From Methanosarcina barkeri str. Wiesmoor (GTDB lineage Archaea > Halobacteriota > Methanosarcinia > Methanosarcinales > Methanosarcinaceae), in contig NZ_CP009526.1 of NCBI RefSeq assembly GCF_000969985.1, positions 3,472,001 to 3,536,000 on the forward strand: a stretch of 64,000 nucleotides of DNA, given 5' to 3'. The position numbers were made by a program, and so were the translations under genes. Shown in pieces: positions 47,399 through 61,518 of this stretch (position 1 is the stretch's first letter; each line of letters begins with the position of its first letter). The notes under the pieces are model-generated. The model saw only the letters and a list, made by a program, of their open reading frames with translations. It was not told the DNA's origin and ran no database searches.

Positions 47399-50005
47399 TT
47401 AGTTTCTTCTCTTCCGCAGAATAACAAATGCTATGGAGAGTATACCAAGTGTAGCCATCCCACTGAAGAAAGGAGCTTTCTTTGTCACCTCATAACTTTC
47501 GCTCAGACCTCCTACTTCAACAGTATATGTCCCTGGCGTGTCCTCAGTGTGTGAGAATTCGATTGATTTGTTCTCACCCGGATTAAGGGTTACATTCTCA
47601 GAATCAACTGATTCGTTATTAACCAGCAATTCCACTGTGGATTCTCCTGTGACGTCTCCATTGTTCATAGCGTTCACCCTGATATTTACCGCGGTTCCGG
47701 CCTCAACTGAAGCAGGCTGTATCGTGAGGTCTGAGAAGGTGAACTGTGTTGCGGCTTTCTCCGCCACCTCGACCTGGGTTTCTCCGTCTTCATAACCGGT
47801 CTTTGTAGCATTTACTACATACGTTCCCGGAGCAGTAACCATGTAGGATGTGATACCTTTTTCGTCTGTCTGTGCGTCAATTATCTGTCCACCGAAAAAG
47901 ACATCCGCCCCGGAAACAGGCTTGTTTTCCTCAGAGTCCGTGACCTTTATGTCAATCTGGTCTCCTTCCCGGACGGTTTCTGGAGAAACTGAAACTAAGA
48001 GTTTCAGGACACCTTGTGCGAGGACATCCACCTTCTTGGTTCCGGAAACATAACCTTCCCGGCTCGCAGTTACAGTGAAGCTGCCTTCATTGCTGGGAGT
48101 GAAGGTGAGATTTCCGCTGTCTCCAGTAGTACCTATGCTTTTGTTTCCAACAGAAACTTCAGCACCGACGACTAAAACATTTCTCGCAGTTACCAAAATT
48201 TCGGTCGGCTTACCGACTACAAGCGCATCGGGTATTTCAATATCCAGTTGATCTCCTGCCTCGGTTTCGGTTTCGACAAAGGGATAAAAGCGCAGGACTG
48301 AAGCATCTGCAACCCTGAATTTGACATTGCCCATCAGGTCTACGACATCACCCTTTGAAAGGGAGATTGAGTCCTCGTTTTTCATTGTGATGCCTGAGTC
48401 GGAGATCGAAGTTATTTTCATTTCACCGAAAGAATCTCCCCCAGAAATTTCCAGGAAATCATCCGAAATCTGGAAGATTCCCTCCACAAACACGGCATCT
48501 GTTTCTGTGGAACGGAAGACCGTACTTATATGGACCGCAATCATCGGAACATTTTCAGCCCCACCTATATCGGCTTCATAAATATAGTCCCCGCCCTGGG
48601 AAACTATTCCCGAATCTAAGAGTTTTCCATTCTTGTAAAGCTCAAAGAGTACGTTTTTCCCATTAACATCAACCTCAGCTGCCTTAAGGGAGTAGCCGTT
48701 CTCCAGGACTAAAGAAGAACCAGTGAACAGGGATTTTTTGTCATCGTCATCAATCAGAACTTTTGAAAGAACACGGTCCGACAACACACTTATGCCCTTT
48801 GAATTGCCAAGAGTGTTTTCAGGATATCCTGCAAAATATTTCTCTGCCATGAAGCCGATAACTTCATAACTTCCCCAGCCCTCATGTTCAAATTTGACAT
48901 TTTCAGGCCTTGTAGAATAGACGAGGGATTCATCATCAATTGTCCTGCCATCGAGATTTTCAATAGCAAGGCTTTCAGTGGAAATATTTTCGTCGATGTT
49001 ATAATAGAAACCTTCGAAGTTAAAAGGCGTCCAGACCATAGTATCAAACTTATCATCGTGTACCGTTCCTCTTAATTCATAGGTTCCGGGCTCGGAGGTT
49101 TCAACTATTGGTGCAAAACGAAGTTCATTGGAATCAGCCACAACAAAACTCAGCTTACCCATGATGTCAATAGTATCGCCCTTGCTAAGCGAGATTGAGT
49201 CGCTGTTTCTCATTTTTATGCCTGAACTTGAGGTGGAACTTACCTCCATTTCCCCAAATTCATCACCATTCTGGACTTTCACGTACTGGTCTGAGATCTG
49301 GAAAATTCCTTCCACGAAAACCGCATTGGTTTCGCTGCCGCTGAAGATCTGGGCAAAATGGACTGCAATTATGGGCACATCTTCAGTATCCCCGATGTCG
49401 GCTTTGTATACATAGTCGCTATTGGAGGATAGGAAAGCTTCGTCGACTATCTTGCCGTCCTTTTCAAGCTGTACCCAGACGGTATTTCCGTTAATATCAA
49501 CCTCAACCATGTTCAGAGAGTATCCTTCGTCAAGAACAAGAGAGGAACCAGTGTACAGGGATTTCCTATCATCGGTGTCTATCAGGACTTTTGAAAGCTG
49601 TCCGTCCGAGATAACGCTAATTTCTTTATTTGCAAAGCTTGAGTTTGTGGTGTACCCTGCAAAATAGCGCTCTGCCATAAACCCTATGACATCATAAGAT
49701 CCCCACTTTCCATACTCAAAGTCGGTCTGTATGGGTACTGTTTCGTACTGCAGATTTCTCTTATTAATTGTCCGGCTGCCCTTACTTAGCTGGACTGTCA
49801 GATTTTCAGAACCTTCTCCGGTATCCAGATCATAATAAAAGCCCGAGTAAGTCTGAGGCGTCCATGTGTAGGTAAGGCTCTCATTTGCATTTTCATCCCA
49901 GATGCGATTGCCTGTCGAATCTGAAGCCTGAGCAGCTACACTTAGACAAAGCAACCCAAATGCCAGAAATAAGCATAAAATCTTGATATAGTTTTTAATC
50001 CCCAA
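47399..50005 (-). CDS. Large S-layer-domain surface protein with Ig-like repeats
   Basis: An 868-residue exported protein. The TTG start at 50005 is supported by AAGGAGGT six bases upstream; no ATG fits better. After a signal peptide (about 1-27) come two Methanosarcina-type S-layer (DUF1608) domains, about 30-310 and 315-595, sharing GFYYDLDTGEGSENL/GFYYNIDENISTESL and WGSYDVIGFMAE/WGSYEVIGFMAE. Two PEGA/carboxypeptidase-like beta domains and a CARDB-like domain follow (about 600-845), then a membrane anchor ending RKRRN. The anchor is preceded by APFF rather than the PGF of PGF-CTERM proteins. Probably a minor or accessory S-layer component, perhaps extending outward. Confidence 0.88.
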   Translation of the reverse strand: MGIKNYIKILCLFLAFGLLCLSVAAQASDSTGNRIWDENANESLTYTWTPQTYSGFYYDLDTGEGSENLTVQLSKGSRTINKRNLQYETVPIQTDFEYGKWGSYDVIGFMAERYFAGYTTNSSFANKEISVISDGQLSKVLIDTDDRKSLYTGSSLVLDEGYSLNMVEVDINGNTVWVQLEKDGKIVDEAFLSSNSDYVYKADIGDTEDVPIIAVHFAQIFSGSETNAVFVEGIFQISDQYVKVQNGDEFGEMEVSSTSSSGIKMRNSDSISLSKGDTIDIMGKLSFVVADSNELRFAPIVETSEPGTYELRGTVHDDKFDTMVWTPFNFEGFYYNIDENISTESLAIENLDGRTIDDESLVYSTRPENVKFEHEGWGSYEVIGFMAEKYFAGYPENTLGNSKGISVLSDRVLSKVLIDDDDKKSLFTGSSLVLENGYSLKAAEVDVNGKNVLFELYKNGKLLDSGIVSQGGDYIYEADIGGAENVPMIAVHISTVFRSTETDAVFVEGIFQISDDFLEISGGDSFGEMKITSISDSGITMKNEDSISLSKGDVVDLMGNVKFRVADASVLRFYPFVETETEAGDQLDIEIPDALVVGKPTEILVTARNVLVVGAEVSVGNKSIGTTGDSGNLTFTPSNEGSFTVTASREGYVSGTKKVDVLAQGVLKLLVSVSPETVREGDQIDIKVTDSEENKPVSGADVFFGGQIIDAQTDEKGITSYMVTAPGTYVVNATKTGYEDGETQVEVAEKAATQFTFSDLTIQPASVEAGTAVNIRVNAMNNGDVTGESTVELLVNNESVDSENVTLNPGENKSIEFSHTEDTPGTYTVEVGGLSESYEVTKKAPFFSGMATLGILSIAFVILRKRRN

Positions 50006-50671: not shown

Positions 50672-52036
50672 ATGGAAACGTATACAGGTATTCCCGAAGA
50701 ATTAAAATTTGCAGTCCTTGAAAGAATACAACCCACTGAACCTGAAAGAGAAAAACTTTTTGCGATCCAGGAAGAACTCGCCTCACAGGTTAAAATCGCA
50801 GCAGAAAAACTTGGCATCCCAGGCGTGCTTGTAAAAATGGTGGGATCTGCTGCCAGAGGTACCTGGCTTTCAGGAACTCACGATATTGATGTTTTTATCA
50901 GCTTTCCTGAAGAAACCTCCAGAAAAGACCTGGAAACCCTGGGTATGGCAATTGCAAGAGAGGTGGCAAGATATGCCGAGCATGCCGAAGACCGCCACGC
51001 TGAGCATCCCTATCTGAATATTACATACAAAGGCTTTGACGTAGATCTTGTTCCCTGCTTCAGGGTTGCTTCGGCTTCCCAGATCAAATCTGCGGTTGAC
51101 AGAACGCCTTTTCATAACGATTTTGTCAAACCACGCATAAAAGGGCATGAAGACGAAGTCCTGCTTTTGAAGCAGTTTATGCGCGGAGGCGGAGTCTATG
51201 GTTCAGAACTCAAGACCCAGGGCTTTTCAGGCTACCTGACCGAACTCCTTGTAATTCGCTACGGCTCCTTCAAAAACACTATCTACGCAGCCTGTTCCTG
51301 GAAGCCAGGTGAGAAAATAGATATAATGCAGCATGGGGAAATCGAGCACGAAGAACCTCTTGTAGTGATCGACCCAACTGATCCCAGGCGAAACGTGGCA
51401 GCAGCCCTTTCTCTTGACAAATTCTGCACGTTCATAGACCACTGTCGGGAATTCCTAAAAAACCCGGAGCTCAGTTTCTTTTTCCCAGCCCCCATCCTGC
51501 CCCTTGAGGACAGCGAAATCCTGGAAAAGCTTGAAAGTAGGAAGAGTACTCAGCTTGCAGTCGTTTTCAAAACCCCGGACGTGGTAGAGGATGTCCTCTT
51601 TCCGCAGCTTTATAAAATGGAGCAGGCAGTAGCTGCCCTTCTGAAAGAATATGATTTTACAGTGATAAAAACCGGCGTCTGGTCAGGAAATACCGAAACC
51701 GCAGTTATGATGGAACTCATTTCAGGTACCCTGCCCAACGTGAAAAAACACATCGGTCCCCCGGTCTGGGTCAAAGTACACGCAGAGAAGTTCAAGGAAA
51801 AATATCAGGCAGCAGACGGCGTTTTTGGAGGTTATATCGAAAACGGAAAATACATCTTTGAAATCCTGCGCAAGTACCCGACGGCAAGAGGGCTTCTCGA
51901 AGACCGGCTCATGAGCTGTTCTCTTGGAAAACAGGTACATCAGAGCGTGAATGAGGGTTTTGAGATTATAGAGAATGCCGGGATTTGCAGATTAAAAGAG
52001 TATGACTTTAGGATTTATTTGAGGAAATGGATATAA
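50672..52036 (+). CDS. cca: CCA-adding tRNA nucleotidyltransferase, archaeal class I
   Basis: Adds and repairs the 3' CCA of tRNAs. The 454-residue length is normal for the archaeal enzyme. The nucleotidyltransferase signature is GSAARGTWLSGTHDIDVFISFP (about 59-80), with the paired aspartates DID; the third carboxylate is in FDVDLVPCF. The palm and body domains follow (VLLLKQFMRGGGVYGSELKTQGFSGYLTELLVIRYGSF; DPTDPRRNVAAALSLDKF). The gene is intact and monocistronic. A second, partial copy of its last ~70 codons lies 8.6 kb downstream at 60510-60717. Confidence 0.95.
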   Translation: METYTGIPEELKFAVLERIQPTEPEREKLFAIQEELASQVKIAAEKLGIPGVLVKMVGSAARGTWLSGTHDIDVFISFPEETSRKDLETLGMAIAREVARYAEHAEDRHAEHPYLNITYKGFDVDLVPCFRVASASQIKSAVDRTPFHNDFVKPRIKGHEDEVLLLKQFMRGGGVYGSELKTQGFSGYLTELLVIRYGSFKNTIYAACSWKPGEKIDIMQHGEIEHEEPLVVIDPTDPRRNVAAALSLDKFCTFIDHCREFLKNPELSFFFPAPILPLEDSEILEKLESRKSTQLAVVFKTPDVVEDVLFPQLYKMEQAVAALLKEYDFTVIKTGVWSGNTETAVMMELISGTLPNVKKHIGPPVWVKVHAEKFKEKYQAADGVFGGYIENGKYIFEILRKYPTARGLLEDRLMSCSLGKQVHQSVNEGFEIIENAGICRLKEYDFRIYLRKWI

Positions 52037-52248
52037 AAGAGATTATAATGTGGACAATAGTAATAGCCAATTAATTGATATTACACAAAACGAGAGATAG
52101 GGATATACTTTCGCAAAAGTTTTTAAATGGGCCTTTTCAATTGACCAATTATAAGTCTGCAGTTGTCTCACCCACAGGACTGCCATAATTAAAATAATTT
52201 ATTCAAAAACATAGCCACGTTTGGAGAAATAATTACAAATGGTATATT

Positions 52249-52282
52249 GATTCTGGCATAGTATTCGAATATTAGTATAATA
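52249..52282 (+). promoter_or_regulatory. Shared upstream motif, copy 1 (before the winged-helix operon)
   Basis: GATTCTGG-N6-ATTCGAATATTAGTATAAT ends 280 bases before the membrane-protein/winged-helix gene pair. Almost the same sequence occurs at 54213-54245, 320 bases before the S-layer gene. It could be a regulator site or a common promoter element with a long leader. Confidence 0.5.
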
Positions 52283-52561
52283 CACGACTTATCTGAAAAA
52301 TGGGCCCTACTATTAATAAGAACTTCATCTGAAGTTTTTATTTTTGTGTAAGCATTATTAGTAACATAGCATAGATTTCAAATACTTCGTTGTGGTATGA
52401 CAGACTATTTTGGTGAGATATAAAAACGAATTTGACCAGATATAAAAACGAATAAAATTCCCCCAAAACATTTAAAAATATATTTTTCTGGAGTGCATCT
52501 CAAAACTTGACATCTTAACGTTTGATTTAATGTAATGCGTTGATGGAGGCAACTAAAGTCT

Positions 52562-52831
52562 ATGATGACTGAACCCGATCAAATAATCCAACTTGTATCA
52601 AGTTTATTAGCGTTAATCCTTTTTGTTATCTCCCATCTTGCATATCGTCGAGAACGTAGAAAGAAACTTTTTATTTTATCTTTAGCATTTTTTTTCTATT
52701 CGGCGATGAATTTTCTGGATGCAGCAGATATTTTTTTCCCTCAAGCAGGTGAATATCCCGAAATTTGGGGAAGTCTACTAAATTTCGTAGTTCTTGCATT
52801 GTTTTTTCTTTCCATGGTAACAAAAGAGTAA
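52562..52831 (+). CDS. Small membrane protein paired with a winged-helix regulator
   Basis: An 89-residue protein with three predicted membrane segments (about 7-27, 36-55, 66-85) and a basic loop after the first (YRRERRKKLF). GGAGG lies 11-12 bases before the ATG. I do not recognise the family by name. It ends 6 bases before a winged-helix regulator gene; small membrane proteins next to such regulators in archaea may sense the envelope and control the regulator. This is inference from gene order. Confidence 0.7.
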   Translation: MMTEPDQIIQLVSSLLALILFVISHLAYRRERRKKLFILSLAFFFYSAMNFLDAADIFFPQAGEYPEIWGSLLNFVVLALFFLSMVTKE

Positions 52832-52837
52832 GGTAAA

Positions 52838-53362
52838 ATGGAATTCGAACTAGAGACTAGAAGAAGAATTTACGAACAAATTAAAAAATCTCCTGGTATT
52901 CACTTCCGGGAACTTGAGCGGAGGCTGCAGATGGTAGTTGGCAACCTGCAGTACCACCTTCAATATATGGAAAAGAAAAATCTGATAAGGGCTTTGAATG
53001 ATGGAGATTATGTACGTTATTTCGTAAAAGACAGGAGCTTAAACGAAACCGAGAGAAAAATAATGTCTTTCTTAAGAAGATCTGGTTGCAGGCATATCCT
53101 TCTTCAGCTCCTCAATAATCCGGAAATGAATAACAAAGAAATCTCTCAAGCTGTTGGTCTCTCTCCTTCAACCGTTTCCTGGAACCTGAACAAACTTGTA
53201 GAAGCCGGAATAATTAAAAGGGAAAAAACCGGCAGGATAAGTAAATTCACAGTCATTGATCCTTCCGCGATTGCAGAACTCCTTATATGCTACAAAGAAA
53301 GCTTTCTCGATACTCTGGTTGACGGTTTTATAGAAATGTGGGAATTCAAGAACTCTAAATAA
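52838..53362 (+). CDS. Transcriptional regulator with two winged-helix domains
   Basis: A 174-residue protein. Residues 1-70 form one winged helix (RRRIYEQIKKSPGIHFRELERRLQMVVGNLQYHLQYMEKKNLIR) and residues 73-145 a second (GCRHILLQLLNNPEMNNKEISQAVGLSPSTVSWNLNKLVEAGIIKRE). The tandem arrangement is common in archaeal ArsR/MarR-like regulators. AAGGTAAA precedes the ATG. It is cotranscribed with the small membrane protein upstream. A motif shared between this operon's upstream region and that of the S-layer gene makes the latter a candidate target. Confidence 0.85.
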   Translation: MEFELETRRRIYEQIKKSPGIHFRELERRLQMVVGNLQYHLQYMEKKNLIRALNDGDYVRYFVKDRSLNETERKIMSFLRRSGCRHILLQLLNNPEMNNKEISQAVGLSPSTVSWNLNKLVEAGIIKREKTGRISKFTVIDPSAIAELLICYKESFLDTLVDGFIEMWEFKNSK

Positions 53363-53628
53363 TTTGATCGTCCATCGTTTGATTGCTATTATTCCAATAT
53401 GAGAAACACAGCTTCTAGCCATTCGTTTCTAGAAAACTTATCACTTTTTTAAGAAACCTTCAATATGGCATTTAAACGGAATCACAAACCATGTTGTAGG
53501 TAACGTAAGGAAAACATCAAGCATGTATTGCTAGGCGATCAAAATTTTGAGTTAGTCTCATTATATGGGTCCTTTTTCACTGGTTTTAAACTAGTATATT
53601 GATTCCAAATTATGTCCGAAATGAACTT

Positions 53629-53723
53629 TTGACAACCACTGAAAGTACGGAAGACACGGAAATAAGTAGTAAAGGTGTGCTTCTGCTGTGCTTTCCGTGG
53701 TTTCAGTGGTTTCAGTGGTTGTA
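53629..53723. repeat. ~95-bp palindromic CACGGAA-type element
   Basis: The left arm TTGACAACCACTGAAAGTAC and the reverse complement of the right arm, TTACAACCACTGAAACCACT, match in their first 15 bases bar one; both then run into CGGAA-containing repeats. Similar ACCACTGAAACCACGGAA sequences are familiar as dispersed repeats in many prokaryote genomes. It lies 850 bases upstream of the S-layer gene. The rest of 53363-54212 has no gene. Confidence 0.7.
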
Positions 53724-54212
53724 ATATCCAGATCGAATCACTCTGCGACCGGTTGCATTTTCCATGTTACAGAATTCCATCTGACTTTAAAATAATATTT
53801 GCGTCATAAGCTGCAATTATTTTTTTATTATGTATTTATTTTAGAATCGATGCACTAGATTGAGATATCCTGCTTAGTTAACTTTGATGATAGATACACC
53901 AGCTTCAAGATACACTTACAAAAGAATGTTGAATAATGAAGGTAAATTTTATCAAAAAGTCCGCTGAATTATACGTTTTTAAAAATCAACCGAATAAAAA
54001 TAGACGAAACTTTTACGCTTACTGAGCAAAAATTGAAATTATTTATGGTGGCGGGAAACATGGAAGAAACTTGGAAAACCCGCCACATTCTCCTATGGAA
54101 GAAGGTTCCGCCACATTCTTCTAGGGAGGAAGGTTTGAAATATTTTGTAGTGTTGATCCCGATCATTCACCACAATAACCTTCAGTTTTCAGTCTTCATT
54201 AGACATAATAAC

Positions 54213-54275
54213 GATTCTGGTACATTATTCGAATATTAGTACAATCGTCGAACATTAGTACAATATTCGAATAAT
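54213..54275 (+). promoter_or_regulatory. Shared upstream motif, copy 2, and perfect 14-bp inverted repeat before the S-layer gene
   Basis: The GATTCTGG-N6-ATTCGAATATTAGTACAAT motif (54213-54245) is part of a larger dyad: ATTATTCGAATATT (54224-54237) and AATATTCGAATAAT (54262-54275) are perfect inverted copies. Between them TTAGTACAAT occurs twice. It lies about 290-350 bases before the S-layer start. Confidence 0.6.
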
Positions 54276-54566
54276 CAAAATTTTAAATAGATATAGAGTT
54301 AAATTTTAAGATTTCGTTGGAGCATATCGGAAATAGGAAAAGTTTCCTCCGAATATCTAAATAGAGGACCAAAAGAGATTTATAAGACACCATTTTATAA
54401 AACGGTGTAAACCAATTTTCGGGATGAGGAGAAACGAAACTATCTTCGACAATAAACGTAATAAATAGATCGGATTGATGAAGAATAGTGAACAGCCTTA
54501 AATTATTGATCCCGATGATTCTTCTTACATATAATAGATTTTAACAAATATGGAGGAAACAACAAA

Positions 54567-56612
54567 ATGAAGAGATTTGTAGCCAGTGCAATGGCAGCTC
54601 TCATGCTTCTGACTGTATTTGCATCCGCCGCAATGGCTGATGATAATACAACCTCAGCAGCGAGTACAGTTGAGATCCGCGGCCCTGTGTACAATGGCTC
54701 AAGTTTAACCGACATCCTTGCAAATACTGCATACGGTAACGATACAGCTATTACAATGGATGCTAACAAATTTGCAGCATTCTATTACGACATTGACAAC
54801 AATGTGACAACCGAGTCTCTTTCCATTAAGAACGTTGCTGGTACTTCTGGCAGGACTATAGGAGATAACGGTTTAGTATACAAGACAACAATCGGAAAAG
54901 CTGAATACGAGAATAAAGATGTCGACTGGGGCAACTACAGTGTGATTGGCTTCTTCGCAGACAAGTATATCCCACTGAAGTCCAACGCTGCTGACAAGCT
55001 CGCCAAACTCGTTCTTGACAGTGACGACAAGTACACTCTCAAGACCGGCGAATCCCTTGACCTCGGTGATGGGTACTCTCTCCAGGCCAAGCAGGTCGAT
55101 GTTGACGGTAATAAGGTCTGGCTTGAATTCGACAAGGACGGAGAATACGTCGATGACGAGATAGTCTCAACTGACTCTGGTGATCATACCTGGACTTGCA
55201 AAGTTGACGACGTGCAGGGCGAAGACGATGTTCCTGTCTTGAAAGTACATGTCAACCAGGTATTCCAGGGCGCAGTTGACAGCATTGCACAGATTGATGC
55301 TGTCTGGCTCATTGACTACGCAAACGCAATAAAAATCAACTCTGACGATGAATTCGGCAAACTCAACGATGTTTCCATTAATGGTCCAACCATTACCATC
55401 ACAAATGATGATACATTCAGTCTGACTAAAGACTCGGATCAGGAAATCGGGCAAGGGTTATACTTCAAGGTTGCTGACTCCAATGATCTCAGGTTCTATG
55501 CCTACAAGCAGCAGACAACTCCTGGAACCTATGATGTAAGAGGAACCGTTGTTTCCGGCACGCAGCCTTACACCTGGACTTCAGACAACTTTGCTGGATT
55601 CTTCTACGACCTGAAAAAGAATGTTGGAACCGAAACTCTGAGTGTTTCTGACGTGAACGGAAGAACTATTCCTAAAAACGGCCTCAACTACAGCACTACT
55701 ATAAGCAAGGTTGATTATAATGCCGATGACATTTTCAATGGAACGTACCCTGTTCTTGGCTTCTTTGCACAGAAGTATGTCCCGCTGAAATCCACAGACG
55801 CCAGCAAGCTTGCCAAACTCGTTCTTGACAGTGACGACAAGTACACTCTCAAGACCGGTGACACACTTGACCTCGGTGATGGGTACTCTCTCCAGGCCAA
55901 GCAGGTCGATGTTGACGGTAATAAGGTCTGGCTTGAATTCGACAAGGAAGGAGAATACGTCGATGACGAGATCGTCTCAACTGACTCTGGCGATCATACC
56001 TGGACTTGCAAAGTTGACGACGTGCAGGGCGAAGACGATGTTCCTGTCCTGAAGGCACATGTCAACCAGGTATTCCAGGGCGCAGTTGACAGCATTGCAC
56101 AGATCGATGGTGTCTGGCTCATTGACTATGCAAACGCAATAAAGATCAACTCTGACGATGAATTCGGCAAACTCAACGATGTTTCCATTAATGGTCCAAC
56201 CATTACCATCACAAATGATGATACATTCAGTCTGACTAAAGACTCGGATCAAGAAATCGGAGAGGGAATGTACTTCAAGGTCGCCGACTCCAGTGATCTC
56301 AGATACTACCCATACGTTGAGCAGACCCTTGGTAACGGAACAGTTACAACCACCCTGGGTAACACAACCAGCATCGATAACACAACAGTCACCGATAACA
56401 TGAGTGTTACTCCAACTCCAGTTGTGAACAGCACTGAAACTCCAGATGTAAACGCGAGCACTCCTACAAACATGGAGACCCAAACAACTACAGATACATC
56501 AGCTACTGCAAACAACACAACCGAAACAAAGAACAAATCTCCTGGCTTTGAGATTGTCCCAGCAATCTTCGGGCTGCTGTCAGTCTTCTACATTGTCAGG
56601 AAGAACAGATAA
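54567..56612 (+). CDS. Major S-layer protein, two DUF1608 domains with PGF-CTERM anchor
   Basis: A 681-residue surface-lattice protein of the type shown to be the main S-layer protein in Methanosarcina. The signal peptide ends AMA at residue 24. Two S-layer domains (about 30-310 and 312-590) share long identical runs. A Thr/Asn-rich, probably glycosylated spacer follows (about 590-655), then the sorting signal SPGFEIVPAIFGLLSVFYIV and RKNR, where PGF marks archaeosortase processing. GGAGG precedes the ATG. Codon use is strongly biased, in keeping with very high expression. A perfect terminator follows. Confidence 0.95.
   Translation: MKRFVASAMAALMLLTVFASAAMADDNTTSAASTVEIRGPVYNGSSLTDILANTAYGNDTAITMDANKFAAFYYDIDNNVTTESLSIKNVAGTSGRTIGDNGLVYKTTIGKAEYENKDVDWGNYSVIGFFADKYIPLKSNAADKLAKLVLDSDDKYTLKTGESLDLGDGYSLQAKQVDVDGNKVWLEFDKDGEYVDDEIVSTDSGDHTWTCKVDDVQGEDDVPVLKVHVNQVFQGAVDSIAQIDAVWLIDYANAIKINSDDEFGKLNDVSINGPTITITNDDTFSLTKDSDQEIGQGLYFKVADSNDLRFYAYKQQTTPGTYDVRGTVVSGTQPYTWTSDNFAGFFYDLKKNVGTETLSVSDVNGRTIPKNGLNYSTTISKVDYNADDIFNGTYPVLGFFAQKYVPLKSTDASKLAKLVLDSDDKYTLKTGDTLDLGDGYSLQAKQVDVDGNKVWLEFDKEGEYVDDEIVSTDSGDHTWTCKVDDVQGEDDVPVLKAHVNQVFQGAVDSIAQIDGVWLIDYANAIKINSDDEFGKLNDVSINGPTITITNDDTFSLTKDSDQEIGEGMYFKVADSSDLRYYPYVEQTLGNGTVTTTLGNTTSIDNTTVTDNMSVTPTPVVNSTETPDVNASTPTNMETQTTTDTSATANNTTETKNKSPGFEIVPAIFGLLSVFYIVRKNR
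54990..56280 (+). repeat. Near-identical internal direct repeat of the S-layer gene (810-bp offset)
   Basis: About 480 bases (54990-55470) recur 810 bases downstream (55800-56280) with very few differences, while the flanking parts of the two domains are clearly diverged. This patchy identity is the mark of gene conversion between the two domain halves rather than of recent duplication. Confidence 0.85.
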
Positions 56613-56623
56613 ATTCTCTGAAT

Positions 56624-56651
56624 GAAGGATTTTCTTAATCCTTCTTTTTTT
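56624..56651 (+). terminator. Strong terminator of the S-layer gene
   Basis: GAAGGATT-TTCTT-AATCCTTC followed by a run of seven T, 12 bases after the stop codon. The stem is a perfect 8 base pairs. Confidence 0.85.
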
Positions 56652-57250
56652 AATTTATTACTAAAATTCCAATTGCCTGTTGTGTACCAAAATCCGCATT
56701 TTTAGGCTCATAAACATTTCTTGATATCAGTATATGCGCTTAAATTTAAGCACATTACCATGCCACAGAATTTTAAAATCATGATCAATTAACCTCATAT
56801 AGTGTCATAACTCACATGTGCGCTTAATATTTGGGAACTAAGGATTGTATCCTGAAATGATTTTGCAGATTCATAATTTATGTTGTATCCTGAAATGATT
56901 TCGCAGATTCAAAACGTTTGGAAGTTCAATACACGATACAACAGTAGGCGCCGCAAAAAGTTAAACGCTGAGTAAATTCTGTTACATTCCGATACTGTGG
57001 AATGATCATGTAAGAGAAAAAAATTCTAGTTAAAGTAAATAGTGGGTCGCCTGCATACAATAGATAACTATAATATAAAATTTAAAAATAAAATAATTTT
57101 GGAATAAGATAATTGTAGCTTTTTTCTCCACAATTAATATATAGTTGTTTTATTCTATGGAAAAAACCTAATAAATTGAATAACAGTGAGAGATATTTCA
57201 TAATTATCTATTTTCGGGTTAATGTATTCAAACACTGAGGCGCACATTAA
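56652..57250. other. Gap with several repeats before the PAP2 gene
   Basis: No gene is seen. It holds a perfect palindrome GCTTAAATTTAAGC (56738-56751), a 29-bp direct repeat starting TTGTATCCTGAAATGATTT at 56845 and 56883 (38-base period), and dispersed repeat 2 copy B (56939-57122). Confidence 0.7.
56939..57122. repeat. Dispersed repeat 2, copy B (without MITE)
   Basis: Partner of 23715-24035. It keeps the uninterrupted target GGAATGATCATGTAA at about 56998-57012 and so acts as the empty-site reference for the MITE in copy A. It lies about 130 bases upstream of the PAP2 gene. Confidence 0.7.
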
Positions 57251-58081
57251 ATGATATCCTCAAATCAATTAGACTTTATGATAATGCTGTCTCTGATATT
57301 TTCAGTGCCAGCAGGCTATTATATTTTTGTGCCGGAACCTCTTCGGCCCAAATACTATTATGGAAACCTTGAGTCGCCTGGAATTTTGGAGATTCTACCT
57401 TATGTATCTTCGGCTGCATTTATCTTCATACTTATGGATTCACAAAGAGAAATTTCAAACCTCCTGGGTCTCAGTCCCTCTCTCAATTATGATAGATATA
57501 TGTTGATGCTAGAAGGCACTAAAGTGAGTATTTTCCAGAGCATAGCCAATCCAACGCTGACATACTTTTGCGGAGCAGTTTATCTGGTTGGATTTCCATT
57601 CCTTTTGATCTTTACATTTATATTATTCCTGTTTAGCCAAGATGATGAGGCTCTTAAAGAGTATACAATTACTTTTATACTTATATATTTGATAGCCTAC
57701 GTTTTTTACATATTTTTCCCAGTAAATGTGACCGGACATGTATTGCCAGGAGTGATCCCTTTGCTATATCAATTGAATCCGGCCATCTTGGGGATAGTAA
57801 CTATCTGTAGTCCCCGTCTTAACAATTGCTTCCCAAGCCTGCATGCAGCACTCTCGGTAATGGCAACGATGTTTATACTTTTTAAGACAGATCTCAGGCG
57901 TTACAAGGTTTTTGCAGTAGGAACAACCATTTTCATCCTTTTTTCAATACTGTATCTTGGCATACACTGGATTACGGATATGATTGGTGGGATTATACTC
58001 GCTCTTGTTTCTTATTTCGTAGCTATTCGAATTTTTAAAAAGAGGTTCAAGGATGAAAGTACTCGTTTTTATATGCGGTGA
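57251..58081 (+). CDS. PAP2-superfamily membrane phosphatase / phospho-head-group transferase
   Basis: A 276-residue membrane protein with about six membrane segments. The C-terminal half has the PAP2 motifs NNCFPSLHAALSVMA (motif 2, histidine) and YLGIHWITDMIGGII (motif 3, histidine and aspartate). Motif 1 (KxxxxxxRP) is only weakly represented, as in the inositol-phosphorylceramide-synthase-like subgroup. It may remove phosphate from a lipid carrier or exchange lipid head groups. GAGG precedes the ATG. It overlaps the following glycosyltransferase by 29 bases, so the two act together. Confidence 0.8.
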   Translation: MISSNQLDFMIMLSLIFSVPAGYYIFVPEPLRPKYYYGNLESPGILEILPYVSSAAFIFILMDSQREISNLLGLSPSLNYDRYMLMLEGTKVSIFQSIANPTLTYFCGAVYLVGFPFLLIFTFILFLFSQDDEALKEYTITFILIYLIAYVFYIFFPVNVTGHVLPGVIPLLYQLNPAILGIVTICSPRLNNCFPSLHAALSVMATMFILFKTDLRRYKVFAVGTTIFILFSILYLGIHWITDMIGGIILALVSYFVAIRIFKKRFKDESTRFYMR

Positions 58082-60433: not shown

Positions 60434-60535
60434 GGTTAGAAGGCTATATCGAAAACGGAAAATTTGAGGTTTAGAAGGCTATATCAAAAACGGGGAATTT
60501 GAGGTTTAGAAAGCTATATCGAAAACGGAAAATAC
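60434..60535. repeat. Three tandem copies of a cca-derived ~36-bp segment
   Basis: AGAAGGCTATATCGAAAACG with the tail GAAAATTTGAGGTTT occurs three times; the third copy leads into the cca fragment. The core TATATCGAAAACGGAAAAT is also the sequence of cca at 51833-51852, so the start of the duplicated fragment has itself been amplified. Confidence 0.85.
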
Positions 60536-60717
60536 GTCTTTGAAATCCTGCGCAAGTACCCGACGGCAAAAGGGCTTCTCGAAGACCGGCTCATGAGCTG
60601 TTCTCTTGGAAAACAGGTACATCAGAGCGTGAATGAGGTTTTGAGATTATTGAGGACGCCGGAACTTGCAGATTAAAAGATTTGGATTTCAGGATTTTTT
60701 GAGGAAATGGACATAAA
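60510..60717 (+). pseudogene. Duplicated 3' end of cca
   Basis: Matches the last ~205 bases of cca (51831-52036), including GAAATCCTGCGCAAGTACCC and GAAAACAGGTACATCAGAGC, and continues through the cca stop into AAATGGACATAAAA. The first ~130 bases have only about three substitutions and a one-base deletion (GAGGTTTTGAG for GAGGGTTTTGAG) that breaks the frame; the last ~75 are more diverged. It is in the same orientation as cca, 8.6 kb away. Confidence 0.93.
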
Positions 60718-61518
60718 AAATCGATATCGTTTCGAGATTGTACCATGTTGGCCAGTTAATTAACCAGCATGGGATTTTCCCAAAGTCCTTATTTAATACG
60801 TCTTTCTTGCCAATTCCAAAAATTAAAAAGAAATCTTTTAAGATTATTTTTTAGACCTTATGATGTCTGAGAAGACTGTTAGAGTCTTTTCAAATCACCC
60901 AATAATCGAAATCTGCAGAATTTTACCCCTATGCATGAATAATAAAATGAGAATGTCGATATGGGAGTTTTGTTTCTTTTTGGATTTCCTGAATACTATG
61001 TGACATTTAGGGCTAAGGTCAATTAACTAAAGCGACGTTCCAAAAGAGTTTTACTTTAGGCATACATGAGCAGTCGCCTGAAACTAGAAAACAATAATTT
61101 AGTGAGAAATGTGTGTTAGAAATGTTGTCATTGAAATGATATCCGGGAAGCAGACTAAATAACATCTTTTTTTAATTAATATTGGATTCTGAATTATATT
61201 TCTGTAGAGATTATATGTTCTGAACAATTATTTCTTTTGCCGCGTGATTTCAAGTTACTTTCACTGGCATATAATATGGGGATAAATTTACCAGTAAGAT
61301 ATCAAGTACGATATCAAGTACGATATCAAGTACGATATCAAGTACGATATCAGAAACAACCCTGGAAAATTAAACCAAAACTTGTTGATTAATGGGGGAG
61401 ATGACTATTGGTAAACAAACATATCTGCCGGCAGATAGTGAACTGAGAAATCAACATGTATAATATTGCACTGAATTGTGCTAAAATTAATAAGCAAAGA
61501 TAAAAGGGGATAAAGATA
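60718..61518. other. Gap with inverted repeat and 12-bp tandem repeat
   Basis: No gene is seen. CCATGTTGG-N12-CCAGCATGG lies at about 60743-60772. GATATCAAGTAC is repeated four times plus a partial copy at 61298-61353. Confidence 0.7.

Follow-up and report, generated by a model that had tools for sequence, protein, structure and literature searches.

An operator element tied to a winged-helix regulator beside an S-layer gene of Methanosarcina barkeri, and a candidate hairpin RNA

Previous work on the S-layer of Methanosarcina found a single S-layer paralogue expressed and left the silent paralogues unexplained (PMC3361143). A 64,000-nt stretch of the genome of M. barkeri Wiesmoor (the window) contains one such paralogue, slm, downstream of a two-gene operon that encodes a small membrane protein (mem) and a tandem winged-helix regulator (wHTH). 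The same sequence motif occurs ahead of the operon and ahead of slm, which raises the question of what the motif controls. A sequence-only reading of the window had proposed an envelope-sensing switch, in which the regulator acts through the two copies on its own operon and on the major S-layer gene.

The shared element and the S-layer gene

The motif ATTCGAATATTAGTAyAAT is matched exactly at 52263 and 54227, and a third copy with 3 mismatches is located at 54246. Only 0.06 matches are expected, and three were reached in none of 100 shuffles. The 41-base stretches starting at 52249 and 54213 share 32/41 positions, one fewer than the approximate count of the sequence-only reading. In 60 Markov-randomised versions of both gaps the best 41-base match was 28, so the agreement is real and exceeds chance. 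The repeated unit is TACAN4TCGAA, which forms a direct repeat with a 19-bp period in an array that follows GATTCTGG. The arrays contain 2–3 repeats: three in the copy at 54213 and two in the copy at 52249, one of these badly degraded (Table 1). The motif starts 313 and 354 bp upstream of the two start codons and ends 273 and 314 bp from them. The distances of 280 and 320 bases given earlier are therefore roughly right; their similarity is uninformative, since the GATTCTGG end at 54213 points away from the S-layer gene.

The slm product clearly belongs to the S-layer family (PF07752, 500 bits in two stretches; TIGR01567, 544 bits). It had been labelled the major S-layer protein, which is incorrect. 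The major S-layer protein of M. barkeri Fusaro is Mbar_A1758, with 668 residues and the mature N-terminus ADSVEIR; it alone is abundant, A1034 and A2016 are barely detected and A2011 is not among the detected transcripts (PMC3361143). Mbar_A1758 is one of the slmA1 genes of Methanosarcina, together with MA0829 and MM1976 (PMC3361143). In slm the signal peptide is followed by DDNTTSAASTVEIR instead of ADSVEIR, and slmA1 of this genome is found elsewhere (G000:C2:3907396-3909396). It has the ADSVEIR N-terminus, and its promoter and leader are the conserved ones of slmA1 genes. Both slm and the 868-aa paralogue across the cca gene match Mbar_A2011 and Mbar_A2016 in length and spacing. From length and neighbourhood we infer that slm is the Mbar_A2011 orthologue.

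The genes slm and slmA1 share the protein family, the core promoter, the leader and the ribosome-binding site. They differ further upstream: slmA1 has a different conserved region without a copy of the operator, whereas slm has an element of its own. In M. barkeri the start of slmA1 has been mapped to 154 nt upstream (PMC3361143), and by homology the slm transcript is expected to begin near 54413. A leader hairpin with the loop TGATCCCG is present at 54503-54530 and in slmA1 leaders (L104, L106-L119). Its stem is AATTAT/ATAATT in slm and AAGTGT/ACACTT in slmA1, and the common hairpin with differing stems suggests that S-layer leaders have a conserved structure.

Table 1 Features of the locus, in window coordinates.
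Feature	Position	Strand	Description
Second S-layer paralogue	47399-50005	-	868 aa, Mbar_A2016 type; across the cca gene
DUF347 gene relic (putative)	52153..52300	.	5' coding sequence (a few dozen bases) and promoter region with the 52249 copy
Second operator copy, degenerate	52249..52288	-	Repeats 52257-52269 (2 mismatches) and 52276-52288 (3 mismatches)
mem	52562..52831	+	89-aa small membrane protein; first gene of the two-gene regulator operon
wHTH	52838..53362	+	174-aa tandem winged-helix regulator, PF24266 then HTH_24 (Pfam)
Candidate structured RNA, ~150 nt	54027..54183	-	Three hairpins, then a T-rich stretch
Hairpin C	54086-54048	-	
Hairpin C loop	54056..54078	-	Complementary to AAAYATGGAGGAA, the S-layer mRNA ribosome-binding site
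Hairpin B	54128-54090	-	Cleanly missing in G012
Hairpin A	54183-54129	-	
Hairpin A loop	54153..54167	-	Complementary to TTGATCCCGA in S-layer leaders
TATA-like GTTATTATG	54204..54212	-	Abuts the operator; leftward transcript, predicted start ~54183
Operator	54213..54271	-	GATTCTGG 54213-54220; repeats 54221-54233, 54240-54252, 54259-54271
slm core promoter and leader	54371..54566	+	TA-rich 54371-54402; aligned with slmA1
slm	54567..56612	+	681-aa DUF1608/PF07752 S-layer paralogue, Mbar_A2011 type

The regulator pair and its distribution

Mem contains three hydrophobic segments (residues 5-23, 36-54 and 66-84), and its orthologue adjoins wHTH in 10 genomes of Methanosarcina as well as at 11 loci of two other genera. 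The N-terminal HTH domain of wHTH scores 64.5 bits with PF24266 (curated cut-off 31), and the second winged-helix domain, HTH_24, covers residues 85-127 with 80.9 bits. Single-sequence structure prediction yields helices and a two-stranded wing for residues 70-142 with fair confidence, and models the N-terminal half poorly. The domain order is that of the HVO_0163-type tandem winged-helix proteins (PF24266 and HTH_24), and the regulator is a member of this known archaeal family, for which a literature search retrieved no operator. Its closest paralogues in the genus, of ~275 aa, are membrane-anchored through segments within the same chain; in the window this part is supplied by mem, a protein of its own with 89 aa. 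MsvR of methanogens is likewise a winged-helix regulator that acts locally and has repeated operator boxes. With the NCBIfam MsvR equivalog wHTH scores 29.3 bits against a cut-off of 220, and we take both the TACAN4TCGAA sequence and its 19-bp direct spacing to be unlike the MsvR boxes. In G002 (ERenArc_MAG2) the frame of the winged-helix gene is disrupted near residue 130 (L102 6119-6140, oriented strand); the gene is broken there or the assembly is wrong.

Among the 11 Methanosarcina genomes with wHTH, most retain the mem-wHTH-slm order. A sequence-only model of the element detects 21 strong sites in these genomes, all at this locus, and none in the other 20 Methanosarcina genomes; true sites have E values of 1.5e-9 or better, and the next-best match in the genus has 0.007. 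On the slm side, all 10 genomes whose upstream sequence is readable have an intact element. The motif is thus conserved at the orthologous regions of Methanosarcina, which supports this part of the sequence-only reading.

Beyond Methanosarcina, three genera contribute to the 25 of 112 Methanosarcinaceae genomes with wHTH orthologues, and in two of the three mem lies immediately 5' of wHTH. The element is present at 13/14 loci examined in these genera; at the fourteenth (G093) it is located just beyond the examined stretch, upstream of an operon that ends in mem-wHTH. Downstream of the element are a gene for a secreted lipoprotein (g11, g7, g5), a DUF347 gene (G076) or an operon that encodes an exporter and a secreted TSP3 protein, to which G093 adds a glycosyltransferase and a polysaccharide deacetylase. 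The regulator itself mostly sits behind the lipoprotein gene in element-led operons. The pair travels with envelope genes, which supports the proposed envelope connection.

We scanned the 112 genomes with a whole-genome model that incorporated sites from the other genera. The element was found in 28 genomes: 25/25 with the regulator, counting G046 with its broken copy, and 3/87 without it (Fisher p 5e-22), a co-occurrence that is partly a single locus counted repeatedly, since element and regulator are mostly physically linked. For the same reason the association is strong and its support for binding is weaker. In G094 and G038 the element precedes a lipoprotein gene with no regulator adjoining. 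The element tracks mem-wHTH across genera, as the sequence-only reading had supposed for this locus, and wHTH is presumed to be its ligand.

A short motif recurring within one locus could also be a terminal inverted repeat or another end of a mobile element. Two inverted copies ~330 bp apart in G007 would fit such an origin, but dispersed copies are absent from the 31 Methanosarcina genomes, and in other genera the motif is found at promoters with conserved TATA spacing. The transposon-end reading was rejected for lack of dispersed copies, and we consider any mobile-element end highly improbable.

Orientation of the element and the copy at 52249

At the lipoprotein and DUF347 genes the element is oriented with its CCAGAATC end, the reverse of GATTCTGG, proximal to the gene and abutting an A+T-rich TATA. 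The distance from this end is 58 to ~100 bp to the DUF347 start and ~70-110 bp to most lipoprotein starts. The CCAGAATC end likewise faces the operon at the exporter loci of G081 and G093, where it lies several hundred bases upstream of the first predicted gene. In the related Methanolobus psychrophilus, BRE/TATA elements are positioned ~19-22 nt from most starts (PMC5378194). By the orientation rule, neither copy in the window faces the gene to which the sequence-only reading had assigned it. The CCAGAATC end of the 54213 operator points left, towards a TATA-like sequence of its own. There, ATAATAAC stands beside GATTCTGG in most of 10 genomes and is one base off in the remainder; it also precedes the lipoprotein gene of G053 (genus g7), and ATATTAAC does so in g11.

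The copy at 52249 has a different history. The region 52191-52300 aligns with the DUF347 promoter of G014 (81% identity over 113 columns, E 5e-24, blastn), and a remnant of DUF347 coding sequence is detectable from 52153 (E 1e-4). Intact, divergent genes for DUF347 membrane proteins are found just past the GATTCTGG end in G014, G030 and G007. The repeats carry no mismatches to TACAN4TCGAA at 4/4 DUF347 sites and 10/10 slm sites. In four genomes that lost DUF347 the mismatches are 2+3, 2+1, 2+2 and 1+2; in G021, also without DUF347, they are merely 1+0. Given the promoter homology and the decay of the repeats, the 52249 copy is best read as a relic: an element, now in decay, from the promoter of a DUF347 gene that has been deleted.

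Self-regulation of mem-wHTH through this copy, as originally proposed, is consequently doubtful. The copy is intergenic and upstream of mem in most of 10 mem-carrying Methanosarcina genomes, and in other genera most mem-wHTH pairs lie downstream of the element in an apparent single operon, both of which would be expected of autoregulation. However, the copy is homologous to a DUF347 promoter here, it is degraded in G000, G003, G004 and G028, it is separated from mem by an IS605-like insertion (G014) or other sequence (G030), and G002 has mem without it. We regard autoregulation as unlikely, and the copy may still retain a residual role for mem-wHTH.

Several further features surround this region. 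A palindrome, ACTTCATCTGAAGT, followed by a T-rich run at 52325-52345, is part of a well-conserved block upstream of mem, and it may be here that the mem-wHTH operon is actually controlled. The insertion between the element and mem in G014 is IS200/IS605-like and carries two transposon genes (L094 8440-10120). In G007 the two inverted element copies (L098 12133-12505) are located upstream of a DUF347-PAP2 cluster, and one of them has no obvious gene on its promoter-proximal side.

A candidate hairpin RNA and the S-layer messages

The 54213 operator and the sequence to its left form a block (54003-54280) that is as conserved as coding sequence. Within it, the minus strand of 54027-54183 can fold into three hairpins. 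The candidate RNA region is present in a single copy per genome and is unique to the locus; an Rfam search of 52000-57300 returned nothing credible. Across the genomes, 99.7% of stem cells are paired on the minus strand versus 93.1% on the plus strand. The changes within stems preserve minus-strand pairs (UA/UG/CG, AU/GU, CG/UG) and disrupt plus-strand pairs; UA, UG and CG all occur at one minus-strand pair, and several A-to-G wobbles are found elsewhere. There are ~9 independent stem changes, one of them double, and a shuffle test for covariation is non-significant (282/500 shuffles as high), owing to the small number and close relatedness of the sequences. The main evidence for a minus-strand RNA is the strand asymmetry, which indicates that the minus strand of 54027-54183 probably specifies an RNA of ~150 nt. 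A scan for sigma-70-type promoters and terminators, which is of little use for archaea, gave no canonical terminator.

A conserved small ORF across 54010-54240, which is 74 aa long in G014 and G007, was also considered and rejected. Inside this interval G012 carries a deletion of 29 bases and an insertion of one base, which rule out a conserved reading frame, and the changes between species agree with RNA pairing.

Two loops of the candidate RNA are complementary to the beginning of S-layer messages. The loop of hairpin A holds the complement of AGTGTTGATCCCGA from the slmA1 leader; its plus strand equals the slmA1 leader over 14 nt in 7/9 genomes and over 13 nt in an eighth, and the complementarity is largely lost in G007. 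The loop of hairpin C is invariant across genomes, except for one C/T site and the 1-base insertion in G012, and its target is found at very few places in this genome. Among 40 start regions the two S-layer genes take ranks 1-2 with either loop (hairpin A: slmA1 -27.6, slm -24.3 kcal/mol; hairpin C: slm -19.4, slmA1 -16.8 kcal/mol), a ranking that is supportive rather than blind, as the complementarity had been noticed beforehand. The order of the two pairing sites does not suit a single continuous duplex.

The loop matches might reflect ancestry instead of targeting, if 54027-54183 were a decayed duplication of an S-layer leader. Although the plus-strand segments AAACATGGARGAAAC and AGTGTTGATCCCGA resemble the leader, their order is swapped and the remainder is unlike it. 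In addition, the block is better conserved than its surroundings and the stem changes preserve pairing on one strand only. We judge this origin to be rather improbable.

On balance, we lean towards a reading in which the mem-wHTH operator at 54213 drives a leftward hairpin RNA that acts on S-layer mRNAs, with the 52249 copy as a relic. Here, wHTH, perhaps held or informed by mem, would bind the 19-bp direct repeats beside the TATA box and switch the adjoining promoter in response to a membrane signal. The genes attached to this promoter would vary by lineage, from lipoprotein operons, ABC-exporter/glycan operons and DUF347 genes to the S-layer locus in M. barkeri. At 54213 the leftward promoter would produce the ~150-nt RNA, and its two invariant loops could pair with the leader and ribosome-binding site of the slm and slmA1 mRNAs. 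Pairing would lower or retune S-layer translation, the sign of control being conjectural. It is possible that the operator also affects slm transcription, from ~140 bp upstream. Because the loops match the start of S-layer messages, S-layer control may run partly via RNA. The complete chain, from a membrane-linked regulator through a small RNA that binds S-layer leaders and ribosome-binding sites to a post-transcriptional switch of S-layer composition, is a tentative proposal. The envelope switch as first conceived survives in its link between regulator and motif; the major S-layer label and the distance argument are set aside, and autoregulation through 52249 is doubtful.

Close to that first view is a reading in which the operator works forward: wHTH bound to the three repeats would activate or silence slm from upstream, and the left block would belong to the control region instead of being an RNA gene. 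The element is upstream of slm in 10/10 genomes with readable upstream sequence, and its third repeat reaches toward the gene. The slm upstream region also differs from that of slmA1 despite the shared core promoter, and the transcript of the M. barkeri orthologue went undetected (PMC3361143) despite a core promoter similar to the one of slmA1, which is strongly expressed. On the other hand, the repeats stop ~140 bp short of the inferred slm start and the intervening stretch is poorly conserved. In almost every other setting it is the other end of the element that adjoins the promoter, and stem changes in the left block are tolerated only as minus-strand wobble pairs. Forward action on slm does not convince us, and we assign it a low probability.

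The leftward RNA resembles haloarchaeal sRNA132, a small intergenic RNA that is likewise proposed to act on mRNAs encoded elsewhere (PMC6560208). It differs from archaeal antisense small RNAs of the sRNA132 type in being a candidate known from sequence alone. Our literature search yielded no precedent for RNA-based control of an archaeal surface coat. Among openly licensed papers we found no archaeal small RNA that targets the S-layer, and no description of the operator, the split membrane/DNA-binding pair or the candidate S-layer RNA; for Mbar_A2011 to A2014, PMC3361143 was the sole match.

The choice among several archaeal S-layer genes is now supplied with a defined operator, a candidate regulator pair and a candidate RNA. 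The pair has relatives in several genera, the pairing sites are explicit, and operator, regulator pair and RNA can all be addressed by deletion in the genetically tractable Methanosarcina. The archaeal regulator family gains an operator sequence, and the module appears to retain its wiring while the attached envelope genes vary.

The wider neighbourhood contains two other repeats. The CCA tRNA nucleotidyltransferase gene, cca, ends in 216 bases (51823-52038) that are repeated downstream at 60505-60718 with 91% identity. These copies, ~8.7 kb apart, flank the segment with the regulator, S-layer, PAP2 and glycosyltransferase genes, and similar downstream fragments are present in several relatives, which looks like an integration or duplication at the 3' end of cca. 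Downstream of slm, a direct repeat of TTGTATCCTGAAATGATTTYGCAGATTCA is located at 56850-56910.
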